Assembly (NCBI GenBank): GCA_023251725.1
Contig: JAHEYG010000008.1
Coordinates: 1-59,146, forward strand
Origin: Sphingobacteriaceae bacterium
GTDB lineage: Bacteria > Bacteroidota > Bacteroidia > B-17B0 > Aurantibacillaceae
Direction: 5' to 3'
Length of the DNA: 59,146 nucleotides
In this document: positions 3,526 through 10,939 of the stretch, in pieces
Numbering within the stretch: the stretch's first letter is position 1
Layout of the letters: each line of letters begins with the position of its first letter
Notes under the pieces: model-generated
Told to the model about the DNA's origin: nothing
Seen by the model: the letters and a program-made list of their open reading frames with translations, nothing else
Database searches by the model: none
Program-made: the position numbers and the translations under genes

Positions 3526-4596
3526 TTATTTTTTGGTTGCCGAGCTTGTCGAGGCATTCTTTTTTAACTCCGCAATTTCCTTAAACGGTCCGTACTTATG
3601 TTGTTGCTCGTTAAATTTATCGGCATACGGACCAAAGGGATGATCAACCGGTTTGCCAGCAATTTTTGGCCAGTCGTTACTCAGATCTTTTTTTGGACGC
3701 GGCTGCGAATTTACGAAGGCTGCAACATCCCAGGCTTGTTCGTCGGTTAAATTCGGAGATTCGCCATTAGTACCATACGGCATATTTGATTTTACGTATC
3801 CTGCGAATCGCGAGAGCCGATACAAACCGGCGCCGTTATTGTAGCTACGGTCTCCCCACAAGGGCGGATACTGATACCCCAAACCATCGGCATTTAATTT
3901 TCCTTCGCCGTTTATTCCGTGACAACTTTTGCATTTAAACGAATACACTTCTTTTCCTTTTTGGGGATCGGCAGCACGGTCGAGATAAGCTAATTCGGTT
4001 AAGCCTGCGCCTTTTGGTTTTTCGCCTTTTGGAACATCTTTTCCAAGCCATTTTATGTAGGCGGTGATGGCTTGCATTTCTTTGCTGCTTGTATGGAGCG
4101 CATTGCCGTTTAAACTTCTTTCGAAACAATCGTTAACGCGTTTATAAATACTTTCGATACTGCCCGAACGTTCGCGGAATTTCGGATAAGTAGAAGCCAC
4201 ACCGCTGTAATTATTTCCGAATGGTTTGGTGCCGGCTTCTAAATGGCAATTCTGACAATTCATCCCATTGCTTAAATTTTTTATTTTTCCTTTCACACCC
4301 AAATACACCGAAGTGTGAGCAATTAATTCCCGGCCATAAATAATAAGTTCTGAATTAGATTCTTTTTTTATAAGCGAAGTATCAGGAGCCATCCATAAAT
4401 CGCTCGCTGCGTTTTCAGTAACAGTTTCTGGTGTTTTTGTTTTGGGAATGAATTTTATTTCTGCATTCTCTTTTGAAGAGGGCAATCCGGTAATATTAAT
4501 TACAATAAGAATCACCACTACAATTAATAAAATAATAATTACATTAATTAATTTAGCGATGACCTTTATATAATTTTCTTCGTTGTTGTGTTCCAT
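3526..4596 (-). CDS. tsdA: TsdA-like thiosulfate dehydrogenase, dihaem cytochrome c
   Basis: A 356-aa protein with an uncleaved-looking N-terminal anchor (residues 12-35) and two class-I cytochrome c domains. The haem motifs are CQNCH (114-118) and CKSCH (222-226). NCHLEAGT and the block RVNDCFERSLNG are TsdA signatures; Cys157 sits about 39 residues after the first haem His, matching the unusual Cys axial ligand of TsdA. A Met in NMPYG (272) is a candidate ligand for the second haem. TsdA joins two thiosulfates to tetrathionate, or runs in reverse, in the periplasm. The last residues NASTSSAT are encoded by a REP-like repeat, so the C-terminus may have been altered by insertion. It is the first gene of the sulfur operon seen here. 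Confidence 0.85.
   Translation of the reverse strand: MEHNNEENYIKVIAKLINVIIILLIVVVILIVINITGLPSSKENAEIKFIPKTKTPETVTENAASDLWMAPDTSLIKKESNSELIIYGRELIAHTSVYLGVKGKIKNLSNGMNCQNCHLEAGTKPFGNNYSGVASTYPKFRERSGSIESIYKRVNDCFERSLNGNALHTSSKEMQAITAYIKWLGKDVPKGEKPKGAGLTELAYLDRAADPQKGKEVYSFKCKSCHGINGEGKLNADGLGYQYPPLWGDRSYNNGAGLYRLSRFAGYVKSNMPYGTNGESPNLTDEQAWDVAAFVNSQPRPKKDLSNDWPKIAGKPVDHPFGPYADKFNEQQHKYGPFKEIAELKKNASTSSATKK
3539..3555. repeat. REP-like imperfect palindrome read in frame at the tsdA 3' end
   Basis: On the minus strand the sequence is GCCTCGACAAGCTCGGC, a member of the CTTCGACAAGCTCAG-like palindromes scattered in many bacterial genomes. It encodes most of NASTSSAT at the end of the TsdA-like protein. 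A related sequence lies inside a methyltransferase gene at 20681-20697. Confidence 0.6.
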
Positions 4597-4641: not shown

Positions 4642-4677
4642 ACCACTTAGGCACTAAGACCACTTAGTTGCACTAAG
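4642..4677. repeat. Left terminal inverted repeat of the GxxExxY cassette
   Basis: This is a 36-bp sequence that matches the reverse complement of 5096-5131 at 28 of 36 positions without gaps. It contains CACTAAG units. The stop codon of the GxxExxY gene begins one base after it. Confidence 0.8.
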
Positions 4678-4678
4678 A

Positions 4679-5089
4679 TTATTCTTTTGGCAATTTCGCA
4701 AATTCTACTGTAACTAGTGGTATTAGTTGTGCTGTAATATTTTCGCAATGAAAATTTATAAGAAGCCCTTTGGGTTTTCCTGTTAATTTCAAATATGACA
4801 ATAATTGTGCTTTAAACAAAGGAATCATTGCCTCCACCGCTTTTAATTCTACAATCACTAAATCATTCACCAGCAAATCTAACTTGAGAGCTCCTCCTAA
4901 ATCTTTCCCTTTATAATTCAATGGAACTTTCATTTGAGATTTTACTTTCAAACCGGAAGTTATCATTTCATCAATTAAACAGGTTTCATAAACCGATTCG
5001 AGTAAACCCGGACCTAATTGTTTATGAACTTCAATTGCGCTTCCAACAATTTTATATGCAACATCATTAATATATTTTTGCGTAATCAT
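4679..5089 (-). CDS. GxxExxY family protein (PD-(D/E)XK nuclease-like fold)
   Basis: A 136-aa protein, typical family length. The signature GLLESVY is at residues 28-34, preceded by the family's VGSAIEVHKQLGPG. A later DLLV...LVIVELKA segment has the D-(x)n-ExK pattern of PD-(D/E)XK nucleases. The biochemical role of the family is not established. The gene is alone on the minus strand, closely enclosed by inverted repeats (4642-4677 and 5096-5131), and is unrelated to the sulfur and sugar genes beside it, so it looks like a mobile or horizontally spread cassette. Confidence 0.88.
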   Translation of the reverse strand: MITQKYINDVAYKIVGSAIEVHKQLGPGLLESVYETCLIDEMITSGLKVKSQMKVPLNYKGKDLGGALKLDLLVNDLVIVELKAVEAMIPLFKAQLLSYLKLTGKPKGLLINFHCENITAQLIPLVTVEFAKLPKE

Positions 5090-5095
5090 ATTTTT

Positions 5096-5131
5096 CTTAG
5101 TGTTTCTTTGTGTTCTTAGTGTCTTAGTGGT
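5096..5131. repeat. Right terminal inverted repeat of the GxxExxY cassette
   Basis: Reverse-complement partner of 4642-4677: 28 of 36 positions identical, equal length, no gaps. It lies 6 bases upstream of the GxxExxY start codon, so it may also hold the gene's promoter or leader. The whole unit, repeat to repeat, is 490 bp. Confidence 0.8.
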
Positions 5132-5155: not shown

Positions 5156-6583
5156 TTAATGATTTGTTTCATTTGTAGAATCGTAATCGATGCCTTGCGA
5201 TTTTAAAATTGCGGCTGCTTTCCATCCGTAAAATGCCAAATAGGCAAAACAACAAACTCCTACGAAATAACTGAATTGAATTCCCAATAAATTATTTCCC
5301 GCTAACCAACCTTGCAGTAAACTAATAAATCCTCCTCCCATAATCATCATAATTAAAAAACTAGAACCCTGATTGGTAAATTTTCCTAAGCCTGCAATAG
5401 CCAATGTAAAAATACATGGCCACAAAGTTGAACAAAATAATCCCACACTAATAAATGCATAAACACTTACCATCCCATCGGCAAAAATACCAATGAGCAA
5501 TGCTAAAATTCCCATCACCGAAAATAAAAGTAATTGACGCGCCGGATTTCCTTTGCTTAACATATCGCCAATTACCATTGCCACAATTACAAAAACATAT
5601 AAATAAAACGGCGTTAAATCGTGGTTTGCAATTTTATTGACCAATAAAAAAACACCAAAAGCTAAATACGGCATAAAGAATTGCAGAATTTTTTGCGCGC
5701 CCGCTTTTAAATTAAATGCGCCTACAGAACCTGTCCAACGCCCAATCATTAAACTGGCCCAAAATAAAGAAACATAAGGCGCCACATGATTGGTGCCTAA
5801 ATTTAAATGTTGTTTCATAAATTCGGGAAGATTGGAAGCGGTAGAAACTTCAACTCCAACATATAAAAAAATAGCAATCATTCCTAAAACCAACTGTGGA
5901 TATTTTAATGCACTTTTTCGTTCTGTATTTGCAGTGGAAGCAATTTCTTCTGCGTGTTCAATCTTATTGGGCAAACTCGACATCTTAAAAATAATGGCCG
6001 CCAAAATAAACGCGGCTCCTAAAATTAAATACGGAATTTTTACTGCTTCGATACTTTCTAATTTTACGCCTTCGCCTAAGGAACCAAAAATAGCGTAGCT
6101 CACTAAAAGCGGACCAATAGTTGTTCCAAAATTATTTACACCGCCTGCTAAACTTAAACGTTGCGCGCCTTTTTTAGAATCGCCGATGGTTATTACCAAT
6201 GGATTTGCCGCAGTTTGTTGTAAAGAAAATCCTAATCCCACAATAAATAATCCGCTTATCATTAATGGAAATGAAGTTAACTGAGCAGCCGGATAAAATA
6301 ATAAAGTGCCGCAAGCCGAAATAACTAATCCTAATGCAATTCCGTTCTTATAACCAATTTTATTTAAAATATCGCCGCCATTTGCTTTCGATAATAAAAC
6401 ATAAATTAAAGAACCTATAGTATAAGCAACATAAAAAGCAAATGAAATCATTTGTGACTGCCACTGTTCTAAATTTAATTTTTCTTTAAATACCGGAATT
6501 AAAATATCATTGCTCGCTGCCACAAAACCCCAGAAAAAGAAAACCGAAATAAGAATAATTAAATTGGAGGTGGATTTCTGCAT
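5156..6583 (-). CDS. FucP-like sugar MFS transporter
   Basis: A 475-aa protein with about twelve hydrophobic segments. The N-terminus (FFFWGFVAASNDILIPVFK) matches the FHS family of the major facilitator superfamily, represented by E. coli FucP and Bacteroidota glucose/galactose transporters; QQTAANPLVITIG in the fourth segment region is also typical. It should import a hexose or deoxyhexose by proton symport at the inner membrane. The C-terminal tail after the last segment is hydrophilic. It is monocistronic: on one side is the GxxExxY cassette, on the other a folded repeat element in the divergent promoter region. The substrate cannot be read from sequence. Confidence 0.88.
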   Translation of the reverse strand: MQKSTSNLIILISVFFFWGFVAASNDILIPVFKEKLNLEQWQSQMISFAFYVAYTIGSLIYVLLSKANGGDILNKIGYKNGIALGLVISACGTLLFYPAAQLTSFPLMISGLFIVGLGFSLQQTAANPLVITIGDSKKGAQRLSLAGGVNNFGTTIGPLLVSYAIFGSLGEGVKLESIEAVKIPYLILGAAFILAAIIFKMSSLPNKIEHAEEIASTANTERKSALKYPQLVLGMIAIFLYVGVEVSTASNLPEFMKQHLNLGTNHVAPYVSLFWASLMIGRWTGSVGAFNLKAGAQKILQFFMPYLAFGVFLLVNKIANHDLTPFYLYVFVIVAMVIGDMLSKGNPARQLLLFSVMGILALLIGIFADGMVSVYAFISVGLFCSTLWPCIFTLAIAGLGKFTNQGSSFLIMMIMGGGFISLLQGWLAGNNLLGIQFSYFVGVCCFAYLAFYGWKAAAILKSQGIDYDSTNETNH

Positions 6584-10289: not shown

Positions 10290-10595
10290 TTACCCGATAA
10301 GTAAGTTAATTGGTCGACCGAGCCCGAATTCAAAAATGCGATACAAAGTTGAAAGTTGAATGTCGCATTTACCATTTTCAAGTCTGGAAATATAACTTTT
10401 TTTTGTACCAACCTTTTCTGCCAGTTGATCTTGCGTCATGTGAGCTTCTTTTCGGGCTTCTTTCAACATTTCACTGATTACAAAATATTGCGCTTTTTCT
10501 TCAAACTTGTCACGTTTCGAAGCCCCTATTTTGCCATACTTAATATCGAGCAATTCGTCAAACGTTCTTGCGTTTTTAATTTTTTTATTTTTCAT
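10290..10595 (-). CDS. higA: XRE-family antitoxin, HigA-like
   Basis: A 101-aa protein. The C-terminal half is a helix-turn-helix (MTQDQLAEKVGTKKSYISRLENGKCDIQLSTLYRIFEFG), typical of HigA antitoxins. The N-terminal part (FDELLDIKYGKIGASKRDKFEEKAQ) is the toxin-binding type extension often seen with this class. It overlaps the toxin gene by 4 bases (ATGA). It would neutralise the toxin and repress the module's promoter. Confidence 0.85.
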   Translation of the reverse strand: MKNKKIKNARTFDELLDIKYGKIGASKRDKFEEKAQYFVISEMLKEARKEAHMTQDQLAEKVGTKKSYISRLENGKCDIQLSTLYRIFEFGLGRPINLLIG

Positions 10596-10939
10596 ATCTT
10601 CTTTTTTTGTTCGAAATATTCTTTTTTTAATCTTTCAGCTAACGCGATTTCTTGTCTTGGAGTTTTCTGCGATTTCTTTTGAAAACCGTTAAAAAGAATT
10701 ACCAAATTCCCTTTGTCGAAGCAACAAAAAATTCTAAAAATATTGCTTCCAACTTCAACGCGAATTTCATATAGGTCGTTAGTGCCTGTGATGTGGTCCA
10801 AAAACTTTTTTGGAACCTTGTCCACAGTTCGTAATATTTTAAACACATACTCTATTTTCTCTTGAACTTTTCTCGACTGAGCAATATAGAACTCAGTAAA
10901 ATAATGTTTGTGGAAAACGAGTAGTCTTTCTGCCTTCAC
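10592..10939 (-). CDS. higB: RelE/HigB-like toxin (phage-derived Gp49-like family)
   Basis: A 115-aa protein with the fold signature of this toxin class: KVQEKIEYVFKIL, then DLYEIRVEVGSNIFRIFCCF, and NGFQKKSQKTPRQEIALAERL near the end. Toxins of this type cleave mRNA at the ribosome. The order toxin-antitoxin with a 4-base overlap is the Hig arrangement. The start is a GTG at 10939; no other Met or good start exists downstream before the conserved core. A promoter lies so close (10944-10975) that the transcript may be leaderless. Confidence 0.85.
   Translation of the reverse strand: MKAERLLVFHKHYFTEFYIAQSRKVQEKIEYVFKILRTVDKVPKKFLDHITGTNDLYEIRVEVGSNIFRIFCCFDKGNLVILFNGFQKKSQKTPRQEIALAERLKKEYFEQKKKI

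Follow-up and report, generated by a model that had tools for sequence, protein, structure and literature searches.

GxxExxY genes, which encode small predicted nucleases of the PD-(D/E)XK superfamily, are usually enclosed by inverted arms made of short tandem units, and this arrangement is confirmed as a family-wide pattern, not a local oddity. It was followed up from a single cassette in a 59,146-nucleotide stretch of DNA from a Sphingobacteriaceae bacterium (contig JAHEYG010000008.1), hereafter called the window; the genome is designated G000. The type of arm follows the clade of the protein, and arms of the same type are dispersed as palindromes without a gene, together with a matching gene in most of the genomes tested. 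This has the look of a previously undescribed system in which a nuclease is paired with dispersed repeats of its own. On balance, we think it probable that the system behaves like RAYT/REPIN but differs from it in enzyme and in mode of recognition.

Read from the outside inward, each arm of the window cassette follows the pattern ACCAC-NN-AG-N-CAC-NN-AG-NN-CAC-NN-AG-NNN-CAC-NN-AG, in which 22 of 36 positions are fixed (Table 1). A recount on the sequence agrees with the original prediction that the arms, aligned without gaps as reverse complements, match at 28 of 36 positions, and confirms that they lie 1 base from the stop codon (left arm) and 6 bases from the start codon (right arm). All eight mismatches between the two arms fall at N positions. 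A repeat search extends the pair to 42 nt (76%) and lists no longer inverted pair in the 3 kb searched. The next best place in the window matches 14 of the 22 fixed positions, and the peak score in five mononucleotide shuffles of the window was 16. Scored as an inverted repeat, the pair reaches 20 (28 matches minus 8 mismatches). In an earlier run, a score of at least 13 occurred next to the gene in 109 of 140 sibling loci and in 0 of 128 windows 600-800 bp away; the window inverted repeat is therefore far beyond chance.

Table 1. The GxxExxY cassette and its neighboring genes, in window coordinates.
Feature	Position	Strand	Description
Left arm	4642..4677	+	4 CACNNAG units (TT,TA,TT,TA), spacers 1, 2, 3 bp; outer end ACCAC; 22/22 fixed positions
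GxxExxY PD-(D/E)XK nuclease (predicted), 136 aa	4679..5089	-	PF13366, TIGR04256, alignment, AlphaFold2, Foldseek
Right arm	5096..5131	-	4 CACNNAG units (TA,TA,AA,TA), spacers 1, 2, 3 bp; 22/22 fixed positions
Cytochrome c protein gene, left neighbor	3526..4596	-	one side of compared site
MFS transporter gene, right neighbor	5156..6583	-	other side of compared site

The window protein is a full member of both PF13366 (PDDEXK_3; 129 bits against a cut-off of 22 bits) and TIGR04256 (GxxExxY; 135 bits against a cut-off of 35 bits). An alignment of the window protein with 37 of its 80 relatives (38 sequences) shows no variation at E31, D71, E81, or K83, and the PD-(D/E)XK active site appears intact in what is a predicted nuclease. 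For the AlphaFold2 model (pLDDT 95.3), the closest folds found by Foldseek are Cas4 SSO0001 (4ic1) and lambda-type exonucleases; these matches are weak (best E-value 0.007, none at 0.001, TM score about 0.5), with Foldseek probabilities of 0.94-1.00 for nine of the first ten. The fold and the D...ExK active site by which the PD-(D/E)XK superfamily is recognized are both present. No sequence relative of the window protein was found in PDB at E <= 1, PHROGs gave no match, and PADLOC returned just Cas4, at an E-value of 0.018. PDDEXK_3/GxxExxY alone was found in the cassette, with no known transposase. Carriage by phages or plasmids was rejected: none of 50,697 phage records matched, and the seven plasmid records that did were all below 60% identity. 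The family itself is common: in a phylum sample of 296 genomes, 152 have a match at E <= 0.001, and 149 have one above the family cut-off. One paper places a GxxExxY gene next to a CRISPR-type reverse transcriptase (PMC8934634). Literature searches of open-access papers listed none that links GxxExxY genes to flanking repeats, and the names of the PF13366 and TIGR04256 models carry no mention of them.

Linkage between arms and genes was measured in two sets of loci. Close homologs were 80 relatives from one scan of genome contigs. The family survey combined own-genome paralogs, loci returned by two gene searches, and 100 further stretches from the lists of those searches, these being the better-scoring matches and not the complete lists. 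The total is 244 loci, with four duplicate proteins and five short flanks excluded. Arms, defined as at least 18 of the 22 fixed positions on either strand, could be sought on both sides of the gene in 75 of the 80 relatives; within 400 bp they were present on both sides in 43, upstream only in 5, downstream only in 5, and on neither side in 22. The 60.9 kb near the genes hold 146 such arms, and the remaining 580 kb of these loci hold 21. A motif-free test, which scored the best ungapped inverted match between the 200 bp upstream and the 200 bp downstream of the gene, found inverted repeats (score at least 13) at 62 of 77 close homologs (0 of 66 in control windows 600-800 bp away) and at 121 of 158 survey loci (3 of 157 in the controls); repeats thus do flank GxxExxY genes elsewhere. 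The 15 close homologs and 37 survey loci that fall below the threshold count against a pairing of nuclease and repeat. Runs of at least three CRCNNAD units within 150 bp of the gene, sought for proteins of 100-220 amino acids without stops, occur at 58 of 74 close homologs (0 of 63 in controls 600-750 bp away) and at 96 of 155 survey loci (4 of 153).

Two arrangements seen among these loci deserve mention in their own right. L018 has twelve arms within 400 bp on the two sides of its gene, in an alternating, BIME-like array that repeats a palindrome and its flank in tandem. In Ignavibacteria MAGs (L025, L039, L048, L052, L064, and L078), the cassette lies directly upstream of a gene starting like MSKTRIKYICSNCGYE, which we take to be radA; L025, L039, L048, and L052 all have upstream DNA in common as well.

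The arms vary with the nuclease lineage. A protein search detects four additional GxxExxY genes in the window genome, and the family model matches that genome six times. Near these paralogs, inspection by eye found tandem units of CGCAGAG (L002), CGCAAAG in two arrangements (L003 and L004), and CACTAAT/CACGAAT (L005); L003 and L004 score below the inverted-repeat threshold, the start codon of L003 having been taken upstream of the repeats and the spacings of L004 differing between its two sides. Units in the family include CACNNAG, CGCNNAG, CACNNAT, CGCNNAT, CATATAAG, and CACATAG, and spacings include 1-2-3, 3-4-3, 2-4-2, 2-3, 1-2, and 1-1. Arm similarity rises with protein identity (Mantel test, Spearman rho 0.28 over 176 loci with inverted repeats; maximum of 500 permutations 0.085), and does so in the 117 survey loci alone (rho 0.28 versus a permutation maximum of 0.14). 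For control flanks rho is -0.01, and the signal in flanking DNA is confined to the closest proteins: of the pairs that are more than 80% identical, 27% score at least 14. Mapped onto protein trees of 96 survey loci, unit type requires 21 changes (200 shuffles: mean 47.6, minimum 40) and spacing 45 (mean 64.4, minimum 58). Because protein clade and arm type are both inherited, this co-variation is partly shared descent. The original prediction tied CACTAAG-type repeats to GxxExxY genes: the linkage stands, and CACTAAG as the general unit does not. The general rule in the sequences compared is an arm specific to each nuclease lineage, CACTAAG being one dialect among several.

Two dialects occur among arms of the window type: T, whose units are mostly CACTAAG, and G/A, with CACGGAG and CACAGAG. 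Dialect agreement between units is 0.80 when they belong to one arm, 0.80 across the two arms of an element, and 0.51 across elements. The comparison of proteins covered 53 distinct full-length ones out of the 58 loci that have arms close to the gene. Position 15 is V in 33 of the 34 with T-dialect arms, and all 19 with G/A-dialect arms have I there; positions 11 and 124 track dialect less strictly. Arms far from the gene match the dialect of the gene's own arms in 13 of 14 loci, the exception being L054, where they belong to the other dialect. Dialect changes twice on the protein tree versus 15.8 times when shuffled (0 of 500 shuffles as low). It is largely a single split in the tree, and the V15/I15 difference alone is therefore no proof of contact. 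Read by eye, L290 has CAC units and L291 has CGC units, although these two paralogs in G043 are 91% identical and only 10 substitutions and a deletion apart; the automatic unit label of L290 was wrong, apparently because a neighboring CGC array was picked up. A family-wide single-residue code was sought in the survey and not found; columns 11 and 68, the best for the second unit letter, are confounded by phylogeny. L290 and L291 both have an outer repeat, TTGTTACTGTTCRGGTTG, outside their upstream arms, and on the opposite side of L290 an imperfect reverse complement of it follows the arm; these cassettes may be nested in another repeat.

Solo repeats, a check proposed with the original prediction, were found in G000 and in relatives. 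We use solo for a gene-less palindrome of two arms with ACCAC at both outer ends. G000 has six arms besides those of the cassette; they belong to palindromes in which the partner arm is often shortened or changed. A reversed control pattern gave 0. Arms occur in 9 of 60 relatives, and the reversed pattern in none. A gene at 70% identity or more is present in four of the 60, as a single copy in each, and the arm counts there, cassette's own included, are 8 (G000), 25 (G001), 20 (G011), and 35 (G014). Among the other 56 relatives, 19 arms are present in G025, which is 66% complete, and 6 in G039; another three each yield a single match with 2 mismatches, and 51 yield none. G025 and G039 thus have arms without a gene at that identity; gene and arms are out of step in these two, which counts against the pairing. 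In the phylum sample, searched for the arm motif with at most one mismatch, 4 of 296 genomes have the gene at 67% or more: G000 with 8 arms, G292 with 10 arms and a gene interrupted by 4 stops, and G089 (70%) and G137 (67%), which have the gene, yet 0 arms of the window grammar within 1 mismatch. The last two also count against the pairing. The arms of G089, read by eye at L306, have three units and spacers 2-2. No genome among the remaining 292 has more than three arms.

Arms built of CATATAAG units, allowing up to 3 mismatches, occur in 12 of the 60 relatives at 1-50 copies, with one match to the reversed pattern in all. The 12 include all seven genomes in which a gene was seen flanked by CATATAAG-type arms; in G032 and G020 the matches lie at that gene only. 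G013, G022, G026, G035, and G036 have such matches (1-12) with no gene so flanked seen, which again counts against the pairing. The inner gap of window-type elements is bimodal, at 1-103 bp in 38 solos versus 409-618 bp in 38 cassette rows, in which one cassette is listed twice (as L053 and L196). Solos differ between species of the genus. In G292, well-preserved arms enclose the GxxExxY gene with 4 stops (G292:C1:2567993-2568446). In three elements, L096 (G000:C12), L098 (G000:C64), and L018 (at about 5470-5520), short palindromes, TCCGATAGCYATCGGA and CCTGCCCGCCGG...GGCGGG, lie between arm units 1 and 2, as if nested there with a preference for the unit 1/unit 2 junction.

Conservation within arms was examined in four non-overlapping pairs of orthologs at one site (L046/L084, L031/L043, L025/L052, and L039/L048), the two arms compared for L046/L084 being those of a solo pair upstream of the gene. 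Fixed positions agree at 173 of 176, and N positions at 88 of 112, close to the identity of the upstream DNA (0.74-0.86). The alternative pairing L025/L039 and L048/L052 gives 173 of 176 and 92 of 112. The requirement that arms match at least 18 of 22 positions limits this contrast but does not create it. Complementarity between the two arms of an element, observed versus expected, is 0.562 versus 0.557 at NN positions and 0.224 versus 0.376 in spacers for solos, and 0.655 versus 0.641 and 0.421 versus 0.387 for cassettes. The N positions of the two arms are thus complementary no more than composition predicts in solos, and barely more in cassettes; base pairing is therefore not what is kept, and hairpin maintenance was rejected. 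Since the fixed positions are kept and N pairing is not, the conserved feature is most simply a sequence that something reads, not a hairpin.

Several other explanations must be set against a nuclease with its own dispersed arms. Solos are palindromic and, from their sequence, foldable in principle, and they might be hairpin or terminator elements acting in RNA or single-stranded DNA, with the nuclease gene carried along by chance; the complementarity values and the agreement of arm type with nuclease clade make this scarcely credible. Arms that abut the gene, and fixed positions conserved in place, would also suit operator arrays, in which autoregulation or a regulon would work through binding to the arms, and solos would be regulated promoters. 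We regard operators as very improbable: arms lie on both sides of the gene, they form long alternating arrays as at L018, the protein keeps its nuclease active site, and the C38 and C84 solos of G000 have no counterpart at the matching locus in any of the 6 genus-mates compared for each (12 of 12 loci). C38 and C84 were rejected as exact empty sites, the intergenic stretches differing in length and content with no exact junction readable. At the window site, between the cytochrome c and MFS genes, G001 holds a 73-bp solo palindrome, and G002, G004, and G006 have neither arms nor gene; the two neighbors were not found side by side in G003, G005, and G007. The expectation of empty sites in relatives is therefore borne out as far as corresponding sites without arms are concerned, and a sequence-exact empty site was found at none of the sites compared. 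That one site holds a cassette in G000 and a solo in G001 would fit a homing element, as would the position of the gene in the middle of a palindrome and the bimodal inner gaps. Homing endonuclease genes lie inside a palindromic site that also exists uninterrupted; here the solos would be intact cleavage sites, the gene would split its own site, and repair would copy it into solos. The arms at the shared site, however, differ in dialect (TA in G000, GG/AG in G001), several solos have one shortened arm, and many arms stay unoccupied in genomes that carry the gene, most solos being empty. We consider homing, with its putative cleavage of solos, improbable.

The strongest competitor is an autonomous insertion element, in which the nuclease would serve as transposase, with the arms as its terminal inverted repeats and the solos as MITE-like deletion derivatives. 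Insertion sequences have terminal inverted repeats edging one gene, and MITEs are short gene-less derivatives. The arms do mark the edge of homology in GxxExxY cassettes. Among 190 two-arm cassette pairs of at least 72% identity, from 629 pairs at 36 loci, homology stops within 15 bp of the outer edge of the arm, or earlier, in 169 on the left side and 179 on the right. It ends before the arm in 57 pairs on the left and 96 on the right, in the arm or within 15 bp outside it in 112 and 83, and more than 15 bp outside in 21 and 11, passing 60 bp in 10 and 8. Homology between unlinked cassettes thus seldom runs beyond the arms, in line with the insertion boundary that had been anticipated. L220 and L286, at two places in one genome, are 89.7% identical over 484 bp with unrelated DNA beyond. 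L013 and L024, in MAGs labelled as different phyla, are 87% identical over a stretch that starts 26 bp before the arms and ends 11 bp after them, with unrelated flanks, although one of these MAGs may have been wrongly binned. L079/L081 was rejected as a recent duplication, the two contigs being identical over 9.3 kb. Against an insertion element stand the lack of a known transposase, the single gene copy (at 70% identity or more) beside 8-35 arms in 4 of 4 genomes, with usually one gene copy per type, and the holding of some cassettes at one site across species. No consistent target-site duplication of 2-10 bp was found in the 38 solo and 38 cassette rows (one element twice). Direct matches of length 6 occur in 2 of 38 solos (expected 0.35) and of length 7 in one (expected 0.03), and one of length 8 occurs in a cassette (expected 0.03); all five direct matches of 5-8 bp are A/T runs. 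The edges are A/T-rich, and in 64 of the 76 rows the second base beyond the right arm is A. Some insertion sequence families make no target duplication, and its absence alone therefore does not exclude all of them. We rate the insertion element as unlikely, though still deserving of consideration; with no consistent duplication, a single gene beside 8-35 arms, and stable sites, the original proposal of a minimal transposable unit finds no support in the sense of a conventional transposon. Autonomous transposition and homing may both contribute to rare moves of the gene.

Under the reading we prefer, a nuclease with its own dispersed arms, the GxxExxY protein would be a minimal PD-(D/E)XK nuclease that recognizes arms of tandem short units, with unit and spacing specific to its lineage. 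Such arms flank the nuclease's own gene, and arms of identical type are scattered as gene-less palindromes, which are probably copied or moved in trans; the gene itself would move rarely. We infer that the protein binds the arms, cuts DNA there, and thereby spreads the repeats. A protein of 136 amino acids must multimerize or have a partner to read 36 bp, and we count this against the pairing, as we do the failure to find a consistent target duplication or a sequence-exact empty site. More speculatively, and with less confidence than we place in the pairing itself, GxxExxY proteins might be programmable-looking, array-reading nucleases with lineage-specific letters and spacing, perhaps read through the N-terminal helix, that copy their arms by a mechanism of no described transposase, homing, or REP system. 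The N-terminal helix comprises residues 4-25 in the model, and columns 11, 15, and 19, among those that differ with arm letters, lie on it. If the array-reading view is true, the unit switch between L290 and L291 would be a natural change of specificity made by at most 10 substitutions and one deletion.

The nearest described parallel is RAYT/REPIN. Published accounts (PMC3116915, PMC8266576, PMC3733652) describe an enzyme gene, mostly in single copy, that lies between repeats of its own kind. These repeats spread as inverted pairs and as tandem arrays; enzymes that share a genome pair with different flavors, and enzyme and repeat co-evolve. Single gene, cognate repeats, several flavors per genome, and co-evolution are likewise found in the GxxExxY system; the combination of a single gene with dispersed cognate inverted pairs was found in 4 of 60 relatives and is not universal (G089, G137). 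The enzyme of RAYT/REPIN (TnpAREP/REP, REPtrons) is an HUH tyrosine enzyme of the IS200/IS605 type, whereas GxxExxY is PD-(D/E)XK, and the repeat is a GTAG-tagged stem-loop, whereas GxxExxY arms are tandem short units with fixed spacers. Unlike the systems so described, the arms show no sign of selection for hairpin pairing, and cassettes appear copied within a genome (L220/L286) or common to distant ones (L013/L024). Because enzyme fold and repeat structure both depart from what defines RAYT/REPIN, the GxxExxY system is not a member. TIRtrons/TIRYTs (PMC3733652) similarly have a lone gene inside terminal inverted repeats and, in some genomes, dispersed copies of those repeats; they encode IS200-type tyrosine transposases, whereas the fold here is that of an unrelated nuclease and the arms have multiple units.

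Through the pairing, a very common family of unknown function acquires DNA arms of its own as a testable partner. Many dispersed CACTAAG-, CACGGAG-, and CATATAAG-type repeats in these genomes would be accounted for, and the REPtron-like way of life would extend to a second enzyme superfamily. The natural series of nuclease/target pairs offers a route to learning how a 136-residue protein could read spaced short units.

Two further observations concern other genes. At the site of a G000 solo, G001:C280 has a 23S rRNA intervening-sequence protein gene (L345, 163-543, minus strand; PF05635, 122 bits). By eye, imperfect AAATTGCAGATT/AAATTACAGATT repeats appear to lie on either side of it, a repeat search at length 15 having found none, and L345 possibly represents a parallel cassette family. 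In the window, the ORF list includes two small overlapping genes on the minus strand, at 10290-10595 and 10592-10939, which presumably encode an HTH antitoxin and a RelE/HigB-type toxin, judging by their resemblance to such proteins.
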